The translations under genes were made by a program, and so were the position numbers. A stretch of DNA of 64,000 nt from Mitsuaria sp. GD03876 (GTDB lineage Bacteria; Pseudomonadota; Gammaproteobacteria; Burkholderiales; Burkholderiaceae_C): contig NZ_JAOCCU010000020.1 in NCBI RefSeq assembly GCF_029840635.1, positions 1 through 64,000 on the forward strand. The letters are read 5' to 3'. This document shows positions 12,393 to 47,052 of this stretch, piece after piece. The notes below the pieces were generated by a model. That model did not search any database, was not told where the DNA came from, and saw only the letters and a program-made list of their open reading frames with translations. The stretch's first letter is position 1, and each line of letters begins with the position of its first letter.

Positions 12393-13097
12393 TCAGGGCG
12401 CGACGTCGACCCGCAATTGCAGTTCGCGGAGCTTCTGGACCTCCGCGTCGCGCGTGCTGTAGACGTTGCGGCTCGCGGTGGTGGCGACGCCGCCGGTGCG
12501 CGCGATCGTGACCCACACGCCCAGCGGCGCCTGGACGGTGCTCAGCACATCGGTGCTGGGACGCTGCTGCGCGTCCGGCAGCGAGGTGCCATAGGCGCCG
12601 CCCTGGGGCATCTGCGCCTGGTCCGTCGCGCGGACCTCGACGTTCACCGGACTGCGCCCACCCGGCCAACTCGGCTTGACGACGATGCCCCGCACCCGTT
12701 CGGCCATGCCCTGGCGCGGCACGACGACCACCCGATCGCGGCCATCGCCCTGGCCCTGGCGGCGATCCAGCGCCACGTCGACCCACTGGATCGGCGTCGA
12801 CTCGGTCATCGTGAACGAGGCCTGCGCCCCGTTGAGCACCAGCATCCGGGGGAACAACTGCTGGCGTTGCTCGCGGTTCTCCGTCGACAGCGTCACGCCG
12901 CCACGCGGCGACACGCTGCCGCCGGTGCTGACCACGGTGCTGCCGTCGCGCGATCCGGCCACCGTCGATGCGCTGAGCTCGGATTCCACCCAGCGCAGCT
13001 CGACCTCGAGGTTCTGCTTCGGGCCCTGGGCGTGGGCGCCAACGCCGGTGGCGAGGGCCAGCGCGGCGGCGAGGACATGGCGTCGAGACGAGTTCAT
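12393..13097 (-). CDS. Secreted protein of unknown function
   Basis: A 234-residue protein with a clear signal peptide (HVLAAALALATGVGAHAQ, cleavage near residue 23). The mature part is beta-rich and polar. It opens with NLEVELRWVESELSAS and contains a glycine/serine-rich turn region (STVVSTGGSVSPRGGVTLST), FPRMLVLNGAQASFTM and a C-terminal ATTASRNVYSTRDAEVQKL. The ELRWVE...VLNGAQASF pattern loosely recalls secretin N-domain-like strands, but I cannot assign a family. The next gene on this strand starts 180 bp downstream and has its own promoter-like sequence; the metzincin-like gene ends 25 bp upstream, so co-transcription with it is possible. Confidence 0.7.
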   Translation of the reverse strand: MNSSRRHVLAAALALATGVGAHAQGPKQNLEVELRWVESELSASTVAGSRDGSTVVSTGGSVSPRGGVTLSTENREQRQQLFPRMLVLNGAQASFTMTESTPIQWVDVALDRRQGQGDGRDRVVVVPRQGMAERVRGIVVKPSWPGGRSPVNVEVRATDQAQMPQGGAYGTSLPDAQQRPSTDVLSTVQAPLGVWVTIARTGGVATTASRNVYSTRDAEVQKLRELQLRVDVAP

Positions 13098-13122
13098 CGC
13101 GCCAGCATACGCCGCGACGGCG

Positions 13123-13827
13123 TCAGCGGTTCAGCGCCCGGCAGCGCGCGATGTCGCAGGCGGTGGGCAGCATCGAGCGGTACTCGACCACGCTGCCCCA
13201 GCTCTTCGGATCGCGCAGCGCGCAGCGTTCGCCCTTGCCGTTGTCGTAGTAGGACATCGTGTCGACGCAGCGCTTCGAATGCGCCATCAGGCCGAAGAAG
13301 TGGCCCATCTCGTGCGACAGCACCATCTGCAGCGTCTGCTCTGCGGGGTGCTTCGGATTGCGCTCGCGCAGCAGCGCGAACAGCCCCGGCCCGATCGACA
13401 GGCTGCGCGCGGTCACGTTGGCCAGCGCGAACTGGCCGCGGCTGCCGACGTCGCTCCACAGGATCTGGATCGCGTCCTCCGGCGGCACCTTGCCGCGCGG
13501 GACGGCGAACACCGTGAGACGCAGGCCGCAGTCGGACCAGGCCTCGGCCGAGCGTCGCACCAGCGCCATCACCTGCGGTTCGCTGAACCAGGCGGGCGCG
13601 TTGTCGTGGCGGTAGGCGAAGCGCAGCGAGCGCGTCGCGATCGCCTTGTCCTGGCCGTCGCCCCAGGTCTTGAGCTCGCCGGGCAGGCATTGGGCGATTT
13701 CCTGGTCGCGCACGGACGGGGCCGCGGCGGATGCCGTCTTGTCGGGCGGGACGAACTGCGCGGCGGCGATCGGCGCCAGCACCGCCGCGGCGACGATCGC
13801 CACGAGCCTGGCGAGCGCGCGGCGCAT
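13123..13827 (-). CDS. Secreted metzincin-like zinc metalloprotease
   Basis: A 234-residue exported protein: signal peptide 1-23 (LVAIVAAAVLAPIAAAQ), then a zinc-protease domain. SHEMGHFFGLMAHSKR gives His172, Glu173, His176, Gly179 and His183, and DTMSYYDNG after it looks like a Met-turn (Met191). That is metzincin architecture, except that the Gly-to-third-His spacing is one residue longer than the usual HExxHxxGxxH. Several cysteines could form disulphides. The substrate is unknown. The start lies just 3 bp after the eamA stop, so the two genes are almost surely one transcript. Confidence 0.7.
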   Translation of the reverse strand: MRRALARLVAIVAAAVLAPIAAAQFVPPDKTASAAAPSVRDQEIAQCLPGELKTWGDGQDKAIATRSLRFAYRHDNAPAWFSEPQVMALVRRSAEAWSDCGLRLTVFAVPRGKVPPEDAIQILWSDVGSRGQFALANVTARSLSIGPGLFALLRERNPKHPAEQTLQMVLSHEMGHFFGLMAHSKRCVDTMSYYDNGKGERCALRDPKSWGSVVEYRSMLPTACDIARCRALNR

Positions 13828-13829
13828 CG

Positions 13830-14714
13830 TCAGGCCGCCTTCAGCACGCCGCGCACGCGCGGCCAGAGCAGGTTGATGGCCAGTCCGCTGATCACCAGCG
13901 CGGCGGCCATCAGCTTCCAGGGCGGCAGGCCTTCGCCGAGCAGCAGCGCGGAGCAACTCATGCCGAACACGGGCACCAGCAGCGCCATCGGCACGACGGT
14001 CGCGGCGGGATGGCGCGAGAGCAGCCAGCTCCAGGCGCCGTAGCCGAACAGCGTGTTGCCGAACGACTGCCAGAGCACGGCGGCCCAGGCGCCCAGGCTG
14101 GCGTGGCGCAGCGCCTCGCCCATCTGGGCCGGGCCTTCGACGATGAAGGACAGCGCGAACAGCGGCGGCGCGGCGAAGGCGCTGCTCCAGACGACGTAGG
14201 CCAGCATGTTCACGGCGCCGGCGCGCTTGCCGACGATGTTGCCGCTGGACCAGCTGAGGGCGGCCAGCAGCACCATGGCCAGGCCGAGGACCGTGGTCGA
14301 GCCGTCGGTGTGGGAGGCGATCACGCCGATGCCGGCAGCGGCCATCGCGAGCGCCAGCCACTGGAAGCCCTGGACGCGTTCGCCGCTCATGCGCATGGCC
14401 AGCAGCAGCGTGAAGAACACTTGCGTCTGGATGACGAGGGAGGCCAGCCCCGGCGAGATCTGCGAGCGCATCGCCAGGTAGAGCAGCCCGAACTGGCCGA
14501 CGCCGACGAAGGCGCCATAGGCGGCAAGGTTGCGCCAGCCGACCTTCGGGCGCGGGAGCAGGAACATCGCCGGCACCGCGGCGAGCGTGAAGCGCAACGC
14601 GGCGAACAGCAGCGGCGGGAACGCGTCCAGGCCCCAGCGGATCACGACGAAATTGCTTCCCCAGATGGCCACCACGGCGAGCGCGAGCAGGAAATGTCGG
14701 AGCGGTAGCGTCAT
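13830..14714 (-). CDS. eamA: EamA family exporter (DMT superfamily)
   Basis: A 294-residue inner-membrane protein with ten predicted helices in two EamA repeats. The N-terminus LLALAVVAIWGSNFVVIRWG, followed by PPLLFAALRFTLAAVPAMF, closely parallels E. coli EamA (YdeD), an exporter of O-acetylserine and cysteine. Other shared blocks are SPGLASLVIQTQVFFTLLL and SWSSGNIVGKRA. The similarity is from memory of the E. coli sequence; substrate identity in this organism is inference. The gene is upstream of, and tightly linked to, the secreted metalloprotease gene. About 250 bp separate it from the divergent bacteriocin-like locus. Confidence 0.82.
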   Translation of the reverse strand: MTLPLRHFLLALAVVAIWGSNFVVIRWGLDAFPPLLFAALRFTLAAVPAMFLLPRPKVGWRNLAAYGAFVGVGQFGLLYLAMRSQISPGLASLVIQTQVFFTLLLAMRMSGERVQGFQWLALAMAAAGIGVIASHTDGSTTVLGLAMVLLAALSWSSGNIVGKRAGAVNMLAYVVWSSAFAAPPLFALSFIVEGPAQMGEALRHASLGAWAAVLWQSFGNTLFGYGAWSWLLSRHPAATVVPMALLVPVFGMSCSALLLGEGLPPWKLMAAALVISGLAINLLWPRVRGVLKAA

Positions 14715-14925
14715 GGCGGCCGGGGCGAGCGAGGGGGACCGCCGACTATGCCAGCCGTCCCCCGGATCGATGCGGTACAGGGGCTTGCGAATGCGACCAA
14801 TACAGCAACGCAGATGTCGCGGAGTAGCAGTAATGGGCTAGCGCAAACAGTCGGATACCCAAAACCGAAGAATGCCGCTAGGGTGACGGTGCGATTTGCA
14901 GATGAACTGCGATTCGCGTGATCGT

Positions 14926-14938
14926 CGCCAGTCTGGCG
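14926..14938. promoter_or_regulatory. Palindrome upstream of the bacteriocin-like gene
   Basis: CGCCAG-T-CTGGCG is a perfect 13-bp palindrome with a single central base, lying 26 bp before the ATG of the double-glycine peptide gene. With no room for an RNA loop, it suits a dimeric DNA-binding protein better than an mRNA hairpin. An operator role is inference. Confidence 0.35.
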
Positions 14939-14964
14939 GCATTTCTTTCATTCAAGGAAATCTC

Positions 14965-15228
14965 ATGTCCGCAATCCAAATCTCCGCACCCGGTCTTCAA
15001 GAACTGACGGCGGAGGAAATTGCCATGGTCTCGGGAGGCTGGGACACCCAGTCGGCAGTCAATGGCGCTTACATCGGCGCGGTTGCCGGAGGCATCGGCG
15101 GCGCGGTCACCGGGGCGATCGCCGGCCCCGCCGCTGCCGTCGGGTTCGTCGGTGGTTTCATCGGCGGCGCCGTGACCGGCTTCGTCGCCGGAGGCCTATC
15201 CGATAACAAGAAAACCAAAGAGCAGTAA
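14965..15228 (+). CDS. Double-glycine-leader class II bacteriocin-like peptide precursor
   Basis: An 87-residue precursor. The leader, residues 1-25, ends LTAEEIAMVSGG, the classic double-glycine leader with the conserved Leu/Glu/Ile/Val pattern read by C39-peptidase ABC exporters. Cleavage after Gly25 would release a 62-residue peptide starting WDTQS. It is dominated by small residues with repeated GxxxG-type motifs (GAVAGGIGGAVTGAIAG; GFVGGFIGGAVTGFVAGG), as in pore-forming two-peptide and Blp-type bacteriocins, and ends in a hydrophilic SDNKKTKEQ tail. AAGGAAA precedes the ATG by four bases. The next start follows the stop directly. No C39 exporter is in the window, so secretion would need machinery elsewhere. 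Confidence 0.75.
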   Translation: MSAIQISAPGLQELTAEEIAMVSGGWDTQSAVNGAYIGAVAGGIGGAVTGAIAGPAAAVGFVGGFIGGAVTGFVAGGLSDNKKTKEQ

Positions 15229-15438
15229 GTGCCCTTGCTCAAACCATCGTCGGATGAATTGGGTTGGCGCTGGGTGGCGAGATTCACCCTCACGCTCGCC
15301 GTTATTCACCCCCTCGTCTATCGAACGATATTCGGAGAATGGCCAACCCTTTTATATAGCGCCACTTTCGTGCCGGTGACCACCGCTTTGGTATTTGTGG
15401 TCAATCGAGTTCTGAATCTCGTCCGAAAGCGGGACTGA
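15229..15438 (+). CDS. Two-helix membrane protein, putative bacteriocin immunity protein
   Basis: A 69-residue protein starting at a GTG directly abutting the bacteriocin-like stop (TAAGTG), implying translational coupling. It has two hydrophobic spans, FTLTLAVIHPLVYRTIF and LLYSATFVPVTTALVFVV, and a basic end (LNLVRKRD), so both termini probably face the cytoplasm. Small membrane proteins encoded directly after class II bacteriocins are commonly immunity factors, and the position and coupling fit. I do not recognise the sequence. Codon use is less G/C-biased than in most neighbours, as in the peptide gene, so the pair may have been acquired together. A strong hairpin follows 12 bp after the stop. 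Confidence 0.6.
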   Translation: MPLLKPSSDELGWRWVARFTLTLAVIHPLVYRTIFGEWPTLLYSATFVPVTTALVFVVNRVLNLVRKRD

Positions 15439-15449
15439 CCGCTCCCAAA

Positions 15450-15471
15450 GGCCGCCGGGGAACCGGCGGCC
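15450..15471. terminator. Strong stem-loop between convergent genes
   Basis: GGCCGCCGG, loop GGAA, CCGGCGGCC: a perfect 9-bp G/C stem on a GNRA tetraloop, lying between the bacteriocin-like locus and the convergent helicase gene. The downstream bases ATTCACGTC lack a U-run. It probably ends transcripts from both sides with help from Rho. Confidence 0.6.
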
Positions 15472-15490
15472 ATTCACGTCCTGGGTGGCG

Positions 15491-18400
15491 TCAGCGCAGC
15501 GGTGGCGCGGCCGACATGCGGCGCAGGAACTCCCGCGGCGAGATGCGCGGCAATCGCTGCTCGTCCGCCTTGTCGAAGTGGGGCAGGCCTCCCCACAACT
15601 CGTCGTCCCCGATGAGGAAGCAGCGATGCTTCGCCCGCGTCAACGCGACGTTCAGCAGGTTGGGCTGGCTCGAGGCCCAGGACGCCGCGCCCGCCGTCCG
15701 CGCGTCGCAGCCCAGCACGAACCAGACCACGCTCTCCTCCTTCCCCTGGAAGGTGTGCACCGTGCCGATCCGCGCCTTGCACCAGGCCTTCAGCGCCTGC
15801 TTGTCCGGTGGCGGCGTTCCTTCCGGCAGCAGCGCTTCCCAACGCTTGCGGTCCGACAGCGCATCGGCCAGCGCGCCCTTGATCCGCTTGAAAGGCGAGA
15901 TCAGGTAGATCGGCGGCAGGGCGCCGATCGCCGCGTAGAGCCGGATCAGCGCCTCCGCGACCAGGGCGATCTGGTCCGGCACCACCTGCTTGTCGCCGGT
16001 CGGGCCGGCGGATCGCACCCACGCGCTCGGTCCGAGGTCCAGCGTGCCCGGCGGCGGCTGGCGCTTGGCGGGATCGTGCGGCGCGAAGAACACCATCTTC
16101 TTGTCGTAGGCGATCTCGTTGGCGATCGAGAACATCGGATCGACGCAGCGCCGGTGCACCCGCAACGGACTGCCGATCCACGTCTGGCGACCGCCCGCGG
16201 CGACCTGCGTGCCGACCGGATTGGCCTGGTCCGCCACGCCCTGCACCGAGGTCCTCGCGGGCGAGACCTCCAGGTCCGCCGGCAGCGCGCTGACCTTCGC
16301 CAGCGCGTCGATCAGCGGCAGCGGCACGGTGAAGACGGGCTCGATCTGCAAGGGGTCGCCGACCACCACCGCGCGCTTGGCCCGCCACAGCGCCCCCACC
16401 GCCGACTGCGGCACCGCCTGCCCCGCCTCGTCGATGTACAGCCAGCCCAGCGACGCCGGGCCGAGGTCGCGGAACTGGTTGGCGATCGACGCGAAGGTGC
16501 TCGAGATCACCGGCACGACCATGAACAGGCTGCGCCACACCGCCAGCGCCGCCTCGGGATCGGGCAGCCGCTTGCCGTCGAGCAACTGGCTGATCGCGAA
16601 CACGTTGAACTTGAAGTCCGTGCCCATCGCCTCGAACAGCCAGCTCTCGTGCAAGCCCAGCGCGGCCGCGAACAACGCGCTGCGCCGACGATTGATCAGC
16701 GCGCTGCGCCACAGGCCCGAGATCTGCCAGTCGTCGCTCTCCAGGTCGTCGAGGTTCGGCGGGCAACCTGCCTGGGCGAACGCGCGGTCCAGGCGCCGAT
16801 GGCGTCGCTCCAGCGCCTGCCATTCGGCGAGCCGCTCGGCCAGCGCGAGGTTGGCCACGTCTTCGGTCTTCGCCGCATCGCTTCTGTGCTCGATCGCGGC
16901 TGTCAGCGCCTTCACGATGCCGGCTCGCTTGTCATGGGCCTTGCACAGCAGCGCATGAATGGCGCGACGCTTGTTCCGATGGCGCTGCCGAGCCCTCCAT
17001 GAGAGGACGGACAGGCCTTGAGGCTGGGTCGCCTTGATCGCCTGCTTCCTAGCCACCAGCGCACGCTGCCGAGTCGTGCAGACGGCGAGCCGGCCGCGGC
17101 AATCCCGCTCGACCTGCTCCGCCTCGGCGAGCGCGCGCGCGGTGCGATCCCAGGCCAGGGCCTGCGCCGCGACGAAGCCCTCGACGCCCTGCGCCTGAAG
17201 ACCGGTGTGCCACCGCGCATGCGCCTGCAACGCTTCCATCGCCCGGTCGACGCGGTGGCGGACTCGCAGGAACGCCGCCTTCGACTCCGCGAAGGCGAGA
17301 GCCGGTCCGCCCTGGCGGAGCCAGGTCCACAGCGACTGGTGCTCCTGCTTGTCGAAGTTGGCCGGCGGCGGCGCGTTGCGGCTCGGTCCCGCCCACCGCA
17401 GGCCGGCCATCACCCGCTCCCGATTCGCCTTCTTGCCCAGCGCGCAGGAGATCAAGCCCCAGGGGTCGTCGTCGACATCGAACCGCGCATAGCCCTTCGG
17501 ACCGCGCGCCAGCAGGTTCCTGGCCACCGTCCGCAGGTAACCCACGCGCGGACGACCCGCCGGATCCCGCCAGGCCTCGCCCAGCGACCTGGTCTTCGGC
17601 AGATCCCCCGAGATGTTCTCCACCGCCGCGTTGTTGGAGGACGCCACCACCATCTCGTAGCCGCACAGCGACTCGTGCAGGACCTGGATCTCATGCGCCT
17701 CCCCGCCCTGGAACGCCGCGGTCATAGTCTGCCCGGTGAATGCGTCGGCCACCTTGGCGCACGCCGCCAGCGCATCGGCGCGGCGCACGATGTTGTCGGC
17801 GAACAGGTCGCGCAGCAGCGTCGTCTTGCCTGTGCCGGGCGGCCCGTTGACGGAGAAGATCCCGCCGTCCCGCAGCCGCTCCCGCACGCTGTTGATCGCG
17901 AACTGCTGCATCAAGCTCATCGCATGGTCGGGCTGGTCCAGCCAATGCCCGGCGTTCATGGCCGAAGGCGACAGCGTCCTGGCCATCAGCACGCGTCCGT
18001 CCGGGCCATACAGGTCGATCCGCGAGGACGGATCGCCCGGCGTCAGGTAGGCCTGCAGGGCCGCGCTCGTCTGGCCGGCCGACAGCCCCGCGATCGCGCG
18101 AGCCAAGTCCTGCGCGTAGAAGCTGTTGAGGATGCCGACCTCGGTCTCGGCGTCGTCGTCATCGTCCTCGTCGCCCTCCTCCGCCTTGGCGTTCGCGGAC
18201 GACGGGTTCGCAGGCTCGGTCGGCGCATCACCCGCCGCACCGGCGGGTGCCTCCCCAGGCGGGTCGCCGGGCTCATCGTCCTTCTTCTTCCTGGGCGGCG
18301 CGATGCGCGCGCGCATCGCGATGACCGGCGCGGCGGGATCGCCCGGCGCCGCCTCGAAGTCCGCCCATCGCGAGAGGACGTCGAGCAAGGCCAGCAGCTC

Positions 18401-18982
18401 CGCCGGCGTCATCCGGCCGGAGCCATCGCCGAGCGCGGCGCCGCGTTCCGCGCGGAAGGTCTGCAGCGCCTGCTTCAAGTCGGCCAGCCCGAGCTGGAAC
18501 GCGTCGAAGTCCAGCCCCTTCATCCCGTGCCGACGGAGCCGGCCCAGCGCCCAAGGGGCCGTCGAGACGCTGATCTCGTCGAGCCGGGGCGCGCCCTCGG
18601 GGCTCAGCCGGATGCGCGCCAGGCAGGTCAGTCCCTCCAGGTCGCCGCGCGCCTCCTCGGCCAGGACCTCCGCTTCCGTGGCCACGACCTTCAGGGCACG
18701 CCGCACCTCGGTCGACAACTCGGACTTGTCGAAGACGCCCAGGTAGACCTCGTAGCCGGTCAGGCGTTCCTCGGTGCCGGGGAAGTAATCCCACGGCCAT
18801 TCCCACGAGGGATCGGCCCCGGCCAGCGCCTGCCGCGACAGCGTCCGCACCGTCCACTCGGCGTCGGTCGCCTCCATGACCTGCCCCTGCAGGTCGAAGG
18901 GAATGAAGAACTCGATCTTGTGCCAGAACTTCAGCACGCTCGCGTGCCGGTCCTGGCGTTCTTGTTCGCTCGTCAACGTCAT
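15491..18982 (-). CDS. Large SF1 (UPF1-like) helicase/ATPase with helical insertion
   Basis: A 1163-residue protein. The N-terminal ~290 residues are a unique region ending in an acidic, low-complexity stretch (EEGDEDDDDDAETEVG). Helicase parts follow: Walker A GPPGTGKTTLLRD near 379, SSNNAAVENI near 450 (motif Ia), Walker B WLYIDEAGQAVPQ near 846 (DEAG instead of DEAD), VVVGDPLQIEPV (motif III) and TVHTFQGKEESVV near 1070 with LLNVALTRAKHRC (motifs V/VI). About 400 residues rich in Arg, Ala and Glu, with coiled-coil character, separate Walker A from Walker B. It resembles stand-alone 'AAA domain' SF1 ATPases. The start has GGAGGTCAGGGAGGC inside the end of the upstream lrp gene, so the two are co-expressed. 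Function unknown; RNA/DNA repair or defence are guesses. Confidence 0.85.
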   Translation of the reverse strand: MTLTSEQERQDRHASVLKFWHKIEFFIPFDLQGQVMEATDAEWTVRTLSRQALAGADPSWEWPWDYFPGTEERLTGYEVYLGVFDKSELSTEVRRALKVVATEAEVLAEEARGDLEGLTCLARIRLSPEGAPRLDEISVSTAPWALGRLRRHGMKGLDFDAFQLGLADLKQALQTFRAERGAALGDGSGRMTPAELLALLDVLSRWADFEAAPGDPAAPVIAMRARIAPPRKKKDDEPGDPPGEAPAGAAGDAPTEPANPSSANAKAEEGDEDDDDDAETEVGILNSFYAQDLARAIAGLSAGQTSAALQAYLTPGDPSSRIDLYGPDGRVLMARTLSPSAMNAGHWLDQPDHAMSLMQQFAINSVRERLRDGGIFSVNGPPGTGKTTLLRDLFADNIVRRADALAACAKVADAFTGQTMTAAFQGGEAHEIQVLHESLCGYEMVVASSNNAAVENISGDLPKTRSLGEAWRDPAGRPRVGYLRTVARNLLARGPKGYARFDVDDDPWGLISCALGKKANRERVMAGLRWAGPSRNAPPPANFDKQEHQSLWTWLRQGGPALAFAESKAAFLRVRHRVDRAMEALQAHARWHTGLQAQGVEGFVAAQALAWDRTARALAEAEQVERDCRGRLAVCTTRQRALVARKQAIKATQPQGLSVLSWRARQRHRNKRRAIHALLCKAHDKRAGIVKALTAAIEHRSDAAKTEDVANLALAERLAEWQALERRHRRLDRAFAQAGCPPNLDDLESDDWQISGLWRSALINRRRSALFAAALGLHESWLFEAMGTDFKFNVFAISQLLDGKRLPDPEAALAVWRSLFMVVPVISSTFASIANQFRDLGPASLGWLYIDEAGQAVPQSAVGALWRAKRAVVVGDPLQIEPVFTVPLPLIDALAKVSALPADLEVSPARTSVQGVADQANPVGTQVAAGGRQTWIGSPLRVHRRCVDPMFSIANEIAYDKKMVFFAPHDPAKRQPPPGTLDLGPSAWVRSAGPTGDKQVVPDQIALVAEALIRLYAAIGALPPIYLISPFKRIKGALADALSDRKRWEALLPEGTPPPDKQALKAWCKARIGTVHTFQGKEESVVWFVLGCDARTAGAASWASSQPNLLNVALTRAKHRCFLIGDDELWGGLPHFDKADEQRLPRISPREFLRRMSAAPPLR

Positions 18983-18998: not shown

Positions 18999-19580
18999 TC
19001 ATGCCTTCGGTTTCAGATGCCCCAACGGCAACGCCCCACCAGCCTTCACTTCTCCGAGCGAGAAGCTGGTGTGGATGTCCTTCACGTTGGGCAGGTTCAG
19101 CAGCGTGTCGATCGAGAACCGGCTGAACGCATCGAGGTCGGTGGCCATCACCTCGAGTTCGAAGGTCCCCGCGCCGCTGATGTAGTGGCAGGCGATCACC
19201 TCGGGCAGTTGCCGGATCGCCTCCTCCAGCTGCTTCGTCGCCGCGCCGTTGTTGCGGTCCGCGTCCACCCGCACGAAGGCCAGCACCCCCAGGCCCAGCC
19301 GGCGCCGATCGATCTCCGCCCGGTAGCCGGTGATGAAGCCCTGCTCTTCCAGCCATCGCACCCGCCGCCAGGTCGGCGCCGGCGACAGCCCGATCCGCGC
19401 CGCCAGCTCGGCATTCGACAGCCGCGCCTCGCGCTGCAGCTCCGCCAGGATCGCCACGTGATACCGGTCCAGTTCGCCGCTGGCCGAACCGCCGGCGCCG
19501 CCCGCGTCCTCCTCGTCGGCGCCCGCCGATGTCGCTGTCGCCCTCATGGTTTTCCCTGATGCCGCATTTTTCGATGCCAT
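18999..19580 (-). CDS. Lrp/AsnC family transcriptional regulator
   Basis: A 193-residue regulator. After a ~35-residue low-complexity extension (SAGADEEDAGGAGGSASGEL) comes the Lrp helix-turn-helix: LDRYHVAILAELQREARLSN, then ELAARIGLSPAPTWRRVRWLE. The RAM effector domain follows: LAFVRVDADRNNGAATKQLE, VIACHYISGAGTFELEVMATD and LPNVKDIHTSFSLGEVK. It is divergent from the indolepyruvate:ferredoxin oxidoreductase gene, the classical position for an Lrp regulator of amino-acid catabolism, and so probably responds to an aromatic or branched amino acid. GGAAGGGATTCGA precedes the ATG at 19580. The helicase gene starts 16 bp after its stop. Confidence 0.9.
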   Translation of the reverse strand: MASKNAASGKTMRATATSAGADEEDAGGAGGSASGELDRYHVAILAELQREARLSNAELAARIGLSPAPTWRRVRWLEEQGFITGYRAEIDRRRLGLGVLAFVRVDADRNNGAATKQLEEAIRQLPEVIACHYISGAGTFELEVMATDLDAFSRFSIDTLLNLPNVKDIHTSFSLGEVKAGGALPLGHLKPKA

Positions 19581-46244: not shown

Positions 46245-46928
46245 TCAGAGGTAGCCGCACTTGGTCTCCAGCGTCTGCAGCCGGGCGTGGATCGCGGCTT
46301 CGGGGACGAAGAACTTCTGCGCCAGCTTGCGGGCGCTGACCATGCCGTGATTCATCAGCCGGTAGAGAGCGAAGTCGGGCATCAGCAGTTCCAGCGCGAA
46401 GTGGTTGGCTTCCTGCTCGATGCGCCGCGGGTGCTGCATCGACAGCGTGGGCAGGGTCTCGGGCGGCACGGGGCCGTGGTCCAGCAGGTGGTGGCCCAGC
46501 GCATGGGCCAGCACCAGGCGGCGGCGCATCGGTTCCACGGCCAGGTTGAGCTCGATCACCGGGCGGTCGTCCAGCATCAGCAGCCGGCCGCGATAGGGAT
46601 ACATCGGCTCGTCGGGACCGCCGCGGGCGCGGACCTCGACGCCGGCGCCCTCGGCCAGGTCCCGCGCGCACACCGGCAGCGTGGCCTGGTCCCAGTGCGC
46701 GCGGCGCAGCCGGTCGGCGACCTCGTCGATCTCGCGGTGCCGCGCGGCGATCTCGGCCGGGGTCCGGAAGTCGCTGAACGGACGCGACCTGACGACAGGG
46801 GGACCCGACGGCTCGGGCCCGGACCCCTCCGAGCCGGGCGCCTCCGAAACGAACGCATCGGCACCGGACGGTTCGGGCCCGGACGGGTGGCGCGTGGGCG
46901 GGTGGGGATTGGACGGGACGGCGGACAT
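46245..46928 (-). CDS. ImmA/IrrE-like protein with altered HExxH motif
   Basis: A 227-residue protein. The first ~50 residues are proline/serine-rich and probably disordered (PSGPEPSGADAFVSEAPGS). The remainder follows the ImmA/IrrE (M78) layout: IDEVADRLRRAHW, a strand-rich region, MRRRLVLAHALGHHLLDHG and IEQEANHFALELLMPD with the third-ligand Glu. In the zinc motif the catalytic Glu is replaced by Ala (His142-Ala-Leu-Gly-His146), so zinc might still bind but peptide hydrolysis should be lost. A C-terminal helical part (MVSARKLAQKFFVPEAAIHA) resembles the usual HTH-like end. GAGGAGACCGTCC precedes the ATG at 46928. No XRE repressor partner is adjacent. Confidence 0.78.
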   Translation of the reverse strand: MSAVPSNPHPPTRHPSGPEPSGADAFVSEAPGSEGSGPEPSGPPVVRSRPFSDFRTPAEIAARHREIDEVADRLRRAHWDQATLPVCARDLAEGAGVEVRARGGPDEPMYPYRGRLLMLDDRPVIELNLAVEPMRRRLVLAHALGHHLLDHGPVPPETLPTLSMQHPRRIEQEANHFALELLMPDFALYRLMNHGMVSARKLAQKFFVPEAAIHARLQTLETKCGYL

Positions 46929-47052
46929 GGACGGTCTCCTCGGCGAGGCGCTGAGGGACCGGATGCTAGGAATGCGCAAGCCGCCGGGAAATGACTCGAA
47001 CCAGTAGGAAACGTTCGTCCACGCCTGGGATCCGCTGTTCGGGTGACCGGCT

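Follow-up and report, generated by a model that had tools for sequence, protein, structure and literature searches.

Class II microcins such as MccV are among the closest described systems; in these a glycine-rich small peptide is made with a double-glycine (GG) leader, which is cut by a C39 ABC exporter acting with HlyD and TolC, and a small membrane gene adjoins as candidate for immunity. According to the part of PMC11494933 that was available, the class II microcin leader contains conserved positions at -4, -7 and -12, which were taken here as hydrophobic, the Gly content is 12-26%, the genes are described as encoded near exporters, and it was suggested that microcin searches be restricted to ORFs close to exporter genes. 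The survey of E. coli microcins required only an exporter in the source assembly, and verified microcin immunity proteins were found to have no obvious mutual similarity (both from the available sections of PMC9746304). In the pneumococcal blp system the bacteriocin and immunity genes vary at one locus (PMC4860687, available part), and the Neisseria nap peptides were described as cationic GG peptides with microcin features, a putative immunity gene and a C39 peptidase gene being present in the same island; in N. gonorrhoeae the Nap peptides did not kill competitors and promoted autolysis (PMC11798529, available part).

The window analysed here, a whole stretch of DNA of 64,000 nucleotides, was found to contain two adjoining genes at 14965-15438 on the plus strand. 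With a probability of about 0.7 they are explained as a class-II-microcin-like bacteriocin precursor followed by a self-immunity protein, exported in trans, for which killing, immunity and processing are the predicted roles. They were named class-II-microcin-like, and not proven class II microcin, because no bacteriocin model cut-off was passed. The locus was not found to be described in the open literature on Roseateles/Mitsuaria or on Burkholderiales bacteriocins, at the level of titles and abstract openings among the matches listed, nor in the available parts of PMC13174018, PMC11494933, PMC9746304, PMC11798529 and PMC4860687.

The peptide precursor was found to contain 87 aa in the ORF reading of the window, starting with ATG 14965 and ending with the TAA stop at 15226-15228 (plus strand), and a ribosome-binding-like AAGGAAA was read before the ATG at 14954-14960 (plus strand). 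The start at TTG 14896, which would give 110 aa, was rejected since the ATGs of the homologues align with ATG 14965. The earlier note had placed a GG leader before a 62-residue GxxxG-rich peptide, and both were recovered. The leader of 25 aa (14965-15039, plus strand) ends in ELTAEEIAMVSGG, with residues 14-25 reading LTAEEIAMVSGG, and contains V/I/L at -4/-7/-12 from the cleavage site as in the class II microcin leaders, the hydrophobic residue type being our own reading; it was intact and conserved in three species in the alignment with two homologues. This was followed by the predicted mature peptide of 62 aa (WDTQS...KEQ; 15040-15228 with the stop, plus strand). The mature tail contained 25.8% Gly, no Cys, a net K/R minus D/E charge of 0 and ten overlapping GxxxG motifs, and the Gly share of the whole precursor was 21.8%, both Gly values lying within the range of the class II microcins.

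With a strict pattern drawn up in knowledge of this leader, L[ST]x[EDQ]E[ILMV]xx[VIL]xGG, one match was obtained among the window ORFs of 30-200 aa and none when the window was simulated 30 times by a first-order Markov model, and a loose leader motif was uninformative (one real match vs a mean of 3.4 in the simulated windows). The AlphaFold2 model of the peptide, built on a 3-row alignment, contained helices at 28-52 and 57-86 (mean pLDDT 72) in the form of a glycine-zipper helical hairpin. The fold search with this model returned 22 matches, none at E<=0.001, and the best match of the PDB sequence-profile search was a segment of an Rhs-protein at E 0.0038. The stretch 14700-15560 yielded no promoter-like site. 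A T-rich-tailed terminator-like hairpin was observed at 14922-14940, about 25 bases 5' of the peptide ATG, which may belong to a leader RNA or have arisen by chance.

The partner gene was found to start with GTG 15229, directly after the TAA of the peptide gene, and to run to the stop at 15438 (plus strand), as had been claimed for a two-helix membrane protein beginning on the base after the stop. It encodes a putative immunity protein of 69 aa with a [FY]G[ED]WP motif common to both orthologues, and its AlphaFold2 model, based on only 3 aligned sequences, contained helices at 8-35 and 41-68 (mean pLDDT 78). No family match was obtained for the partner in the domain-model searches; its place beside the peptide gene is that of the small candidate immunity gene of the class II microcins. 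The claim that both genes use more A/T-ending codons than their neighbours also stood, with a GC3 of 0.727 for the peptide and 0.614 for the partner vs 0.866-0.969 in six neighbours. The GC3 row for 13094-13690 (0.518) was dropped because that ORF was out of frame.

When compared with bacteriocin models, the peptide scored 14.6 of 27 bits for the MccV model PF17508, 15.1 of 27.1 bits for PF10439 (Bacteriocin_IIc; below the gathering threshold) and 16.6 of 21.5 bits for TIGR03949 (class IIb, lactobin A/cerein 7B; below the curated cut-off). The weak TIGR03949 match covers residues 12-53, where the leader and a glycine-rich helix start are shared with that family, whereas no second GG peptide as in the two-peptide class IIb was found in the unit. 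A second GG-leader candidate of the leader-pattern scan, the 235-aa ORF at 46287-46994 of the window, was rejected as a chance GA-type match. The locus differs from the class II microcins in that the exporter is not adjacent and the host is Roseateles and not a member of the Enterobacterales. Variation at one locus is shared with blp, whereas the site found here is a small cargo site without an exporter, and the comparison was between species and not between strains. The nap island likewise has a putative immunity gene alongside GG peptides of microcin character, but its peptides are cationic and promote autolysis and its C39 peptidase gene lies in the island, in contrast to the window peptide with no net charge.

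The pairing of the two genes, which the earlier note proposed to check across Burkholderiales genomes, was confirmed within the genus; close homologues turned up in no more than three species, all of this genus. A peptide match at E<=1e-6 was found in 3 of 149 related genomes, all of the window's genus and including the window genome (G000), and the peptide was absent at this threshold from 13 of the 16 genomes of the genus Roseateles/Mitsuaria. The pair was complete in all three peptide-bearing genomes (G000, G006, G002) and always at the same place; the partner GTG overlaps the peptide TGA in G006, and seven bases lie between the two genes in G002. The homologue peptides were 52% (G006) and 48% (G002) identical to the window peptide, and the homologue partners 35% and 21% identical to the window partner. 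The partners of G006 and G002 matched each other at E 8e-5 in a single BLASTP comparison. In the partner search G006 was found at 4.6e-6 and G002 was unmatched at E<=1e-3, its partner being recognised from position. A partner match in G141 was taken as chance, since two stops interrupt its frame and no ORF there is plausible, and a partner profile run across the genus gave below E 0.03 only its own three source sequences.

In wider draws, the peptide profile was matched at E<=1e-5 by at least 1 of 299 genomes of the family (the window's own) and by at least 3 of 399 genomes of the order (its own and two at about 1e-6 from other families); these figures are lower bounds that may miss weak relatives, with the first-look candidates scored in part in many genomes (17 of 34 and 13 of 34, for example, in the window genome). 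A small hydrophobic ORF was found close to the peptide match, upstream, in G588 and downstream at both peptide matches in G595, one of which contained an in-frame stop. The single-peptide search of wider genome contigs gave no relative, and the 3-row peptide profile gave there the two Roseateles/Mitsuaria orthologues and a match in Candidimonas; the latter was set aside, as it covers residues 11-37 only and the short peptide concerned is a different one, followed by an ORF that is HlyD-like by eye. No match was found in plasmid sequences at E<=0.01.

The pair was found to lie in a variable interval bordered on the left by an EamA-type transporter gene (13830-14714, minus strand) and on the right by an Lrp/AsnC regulator gene (18999-19580, minus strand). 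The statement that the window contains no regulator did not hold as worded, given this Lrp/AsnC gene; the gene was, however, present in 16 of 16 genus genomes and is taken as backbone. The interval was comparable in 10 of the 16 genus genomes, in which an EamA match was found near Lrp/AsnC in the fetched stretch; the other six, in whose fetched 7-8 kb no EamA was seen, were not counted, among them G007, with no EamA beside Lrp. The peptide/partner pair occupies the interval in three of the ten (G000, G006, G002), and a further three (G005, G008, G004) were nearly empty, with 108, 215 and 337 bp between the matches and no evident gene. The interval of G010 contained a different 68-aa GG peptide together with a 95-aa membrane protein and a 60-aa membrane ORF, that of G011 contained HipA with an HTH partner (HipAB), and those of G014 and G015 contained one main candidate ORF each, with no Pfam match at E<=0.05 (the end of G014 excluded). 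Parts of about 100 bp upstream of EamA were common to all ten by eye. The contents of the interval thus differ among the genomes, and the pair would be cargo that can be swapped at the site flanked by EamA and Lrp, exchange being the presumed process.

Further cargo of the same interval in the window is an SF1 helicase gene of 1163 aa (15491-18982, minus strand), which was matched in none of the stretches fetched from the nine remaining comparable genomes and probably lies outside the bacteriocin unit. Its residues 352-1129 matched the PADLOC model MkoC at E 3.5e-56, and it is possibly a defence gene.

The 60-aa ORF of G010 hints at an immunity gene that may have been kept after replacement of its peptide. 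Its hhalign comparison with the partner profile gave a probability of 27.8% and a score of 21.7 over 53 columns; four other partner proteins scored 9.5-12.4, and the highest score among 150 hydropathy-preserving shuffles was 19.3. BLASTP of the partner against this ORF gave nothing. The ORF is kept as suggestive only, because a GxWP resemblance noticed by eye had led to its choice; the hint is weak and post hoc.

The absence of a C39 exporter from the window was upheld by the genome-wide search, in which PF03412 (C39) gave six matches and none on the window's contig C13; the peptide lies 15 kb from the start of C13, where the linkage view leftward ends. The full genome, named in the earlier note as the place to look for a C39-peptidase ABC transporter, was found to contain two long ABC exporters (on C1 and C23) with C39 Cys/His/Asp motifs, the triad being read by eye, each with an HlyD gene upstream, as in the microcin systems with their exporter and membrane-fusion protein. 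The other four C39 matches were without the catalytic Cys by eye (L003, L005, L006) or contained the Cys in an open frame without the LSGGQ ABC signature (L004). Against the nearest NCBIfam exporter model, whose curated cut-off is 853.3 bits, the two exporters reached 472.7 and 499.6 bits and so did not pass. For the TolC part, PF02321 (OEP/TolC-type) gave 53 domain matches at E<=1e-10, a single protein often accounting for two of them. A 49-aa GG peptide was found shortly before the C23 exporter, with the leader ELTQDEIDQVHGG, which is similar to the window leader. A C39 match at E<=1e-15 was present in 16 of 16 genus genomes, and in G006 the nearest listed C39 lies about 440 kb from the peptide on the same contig. 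The components for export in trans thus exist in the genome, and their use by this peptide is plausible because the homologues are paired in three of three genomes and two C39 exporters are present. Two of the refuting conditions of the earlier note, homologues never paired and a genome devoid of a GG-leader exporter, were checked and did not apply, and its interpretation is supported in part. Downstream of the C23 exporter (L020, 11833-15996), Abi_2-like and SIR2/AAA genes were also seen, possible phage-defence genes.

GG peptides with a small membrane gene beside them were found as 11 pairs in six genus genomes, most of the partners being sequence-distinct. Beyond the window pair and its two orthologues these were C43 and C44 of the window genome, L057, L059, L066, L069, L070 and L085. 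A partner was defined as a protein of <=200 aa with a maximum 19-residue hydropathy >=1.8; the G002 partner, at 1.78 just below this threshold, was counted in the eleven as an orthologue. Among 30 TIGR03949 loci a GG-leader ORF was found by script in 15, and a partner stood beside 8 of these 15 vs 19 of 623 control ORFs, where the threshold and the leader patterns were set after the data were known and the controls were mostly non-coding frames, with the window pair among them. An additional ORF on the opposite strand of L069 and of L070, where the motif occurs by chance, was ignored. L058, whose leader is located beyond residue 110, escaped the script for that reason and was found paired when read by eye. 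The seven without a partner were L068 (a short-peptide array), L071 and L082 (membrane proteins, the leader motif judged as chance), L074 (a chance ORF of 205 aa, beyond the control size range), L075 and L083 (adjoining exporter-type genes) and L079 (partner scoring 1.65). The partners beside the GG peptides of L059 (808-1347, minus strand) and L066 (1671-2189, plus strand), of 179 and 172 aa, are by eye presumably similar to multi-helix CPBP/Abi-type immunity proteins. No Pfam match above cut-off was found for these two or for the partners of L057, L069, L070 and L085, which fits the dissimilarity among microcin immunity proteins and is no proof alone.

For the class-II-microcin-like bacteriocin with self-immunity speaks that the pair was kept together in all three genomes although the partner has diverged so far, and that the C23 exporter stands beside a GG peptide of similar leader, along with the leader intact in three species, the catalytic motifs and HlyD neighbours of the two C39 exporters, the OEP/TolC-type proteins, the eleven pairs, the partners beside 8 of 15 GG-leader ORFs vs 19 of 623 controls, and the differing and near-empty sites among the ten genomes. 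Against it stand the bacteriocin models that were not passed, the familyless partner, the contig without an exporter, the net charge of 0, the lack of a fold match and of a promoter-like site, the 13 of 16 genomes without the peptide and the exporters below the NCBIfam cut-off, as well as the post hoc choice of hydropathy threshold and leader patterns and the mostly non-coding control frames. The main rival, which we consider unlikely, is that the peptide is exported through its GG leader and acts on the producer's own population by autolysis or signalling, the membrane protein being a brake or a receptor. The Nap peptides show that class II microcin features can go together with autolysis and the sparing of competitors (PMC11798529, available part), and the sequence here is equally compatible with action on the own population and with killing, but the patchy pairs, the differing partners and the differing site contents are more in keeping with diversification of toxin and immunity than with a conserved self-signal.

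Small glycine-zipper peptides can act as toxins within the cell, and HipAB in the same interval of G011 and the helicase with its defence-model match beside the window pair would suit a non-secreted, toxin/antitoxin-like membrane pair in which the GG leader is incidental. Such a pair is quite improbable, as three species share the conserved leader with its hydrophobic -4/-7/-12 positions, and this leader resembles that of the exporter-linked peptide. The contig without an exporter and the interval nearly empty in three of ten genomes could also be taken as signs of a decaying relic, a former bacteriocin locus now unused after loss of its exporter, but both frames stayed open in three species despite their divergence and exporters with catalytic motifs are encoded in the genome; of the explanations considered we give this one the least credence.

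For the bacteriocin with self-immunity, the following course is proposed. The precursor would be made and its partner translated by coupling from the same message, as suggested by the abutting, overlapping or closely spaced genes of the three species. A C39 ABC exporter with HlyD encoded elsewhere would cut after GG and export the 62-aa peptide through a TolC-type channel. From its composition and model, the glycine-zipper peptide may insert into the membrane of close competitors and damage it, and in the producer the two-helix partner, lying in the inner membrane, would block the peptide.

More tentatively, and at slightly less than even odds, Roseateles may keep a dispersed arsenal of GG bacteriocins exported in trans, in which common C39 exporters serve scattered pairs, the EamA-Lrp interval is a recurrent plug-in swap site and an immunity gene may outlast its peptide. 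If this is true, the leader-recognition rules of a shared exporter could be read from natural variation. The peptide is sequence-distinct but of a known molecule type, and of greater interest is the presumed exchange at one site; the differing and near-empty states of the site give test material for peptide/immunity specificity in a non-enteric genus. The C39 matches of the genome being on other contigs, a search rule limited to ORFs near exporters, as in the available part of PMC11494933, would miss the pair, because it occurs as an open-frame pair in three species away from C39 exporters.

Other short GG peptides were also observed. A GG-leader ORF with the leader LTPDEIDLVYGG and a polar tail was found at the end of a fetched stretch of the window genome (L026, 15601-15996, on C57). 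In a set of very short peptides with GG leaders, mostly arrayed and encoded by ORFs of 41-117 aa, the tail after GG was found to be P-[QE]-[VIL]-x-N-[DS]; nothing was found in the literature on the PQVTND core. L137 contained a kinase and a C39 match with no such core. A total of 33 cores was found in six genomes (1-12 each), with up to four leader-core units per ORF. These peptides, at L131-L136 of G015, G003, G009, G004, G014 and G013, respectively, adjoin a C39 exporter, and a protein of Ser/Thr kinase type also lies beside them, as checked by Pfam in L131, L132, L134 and L136.
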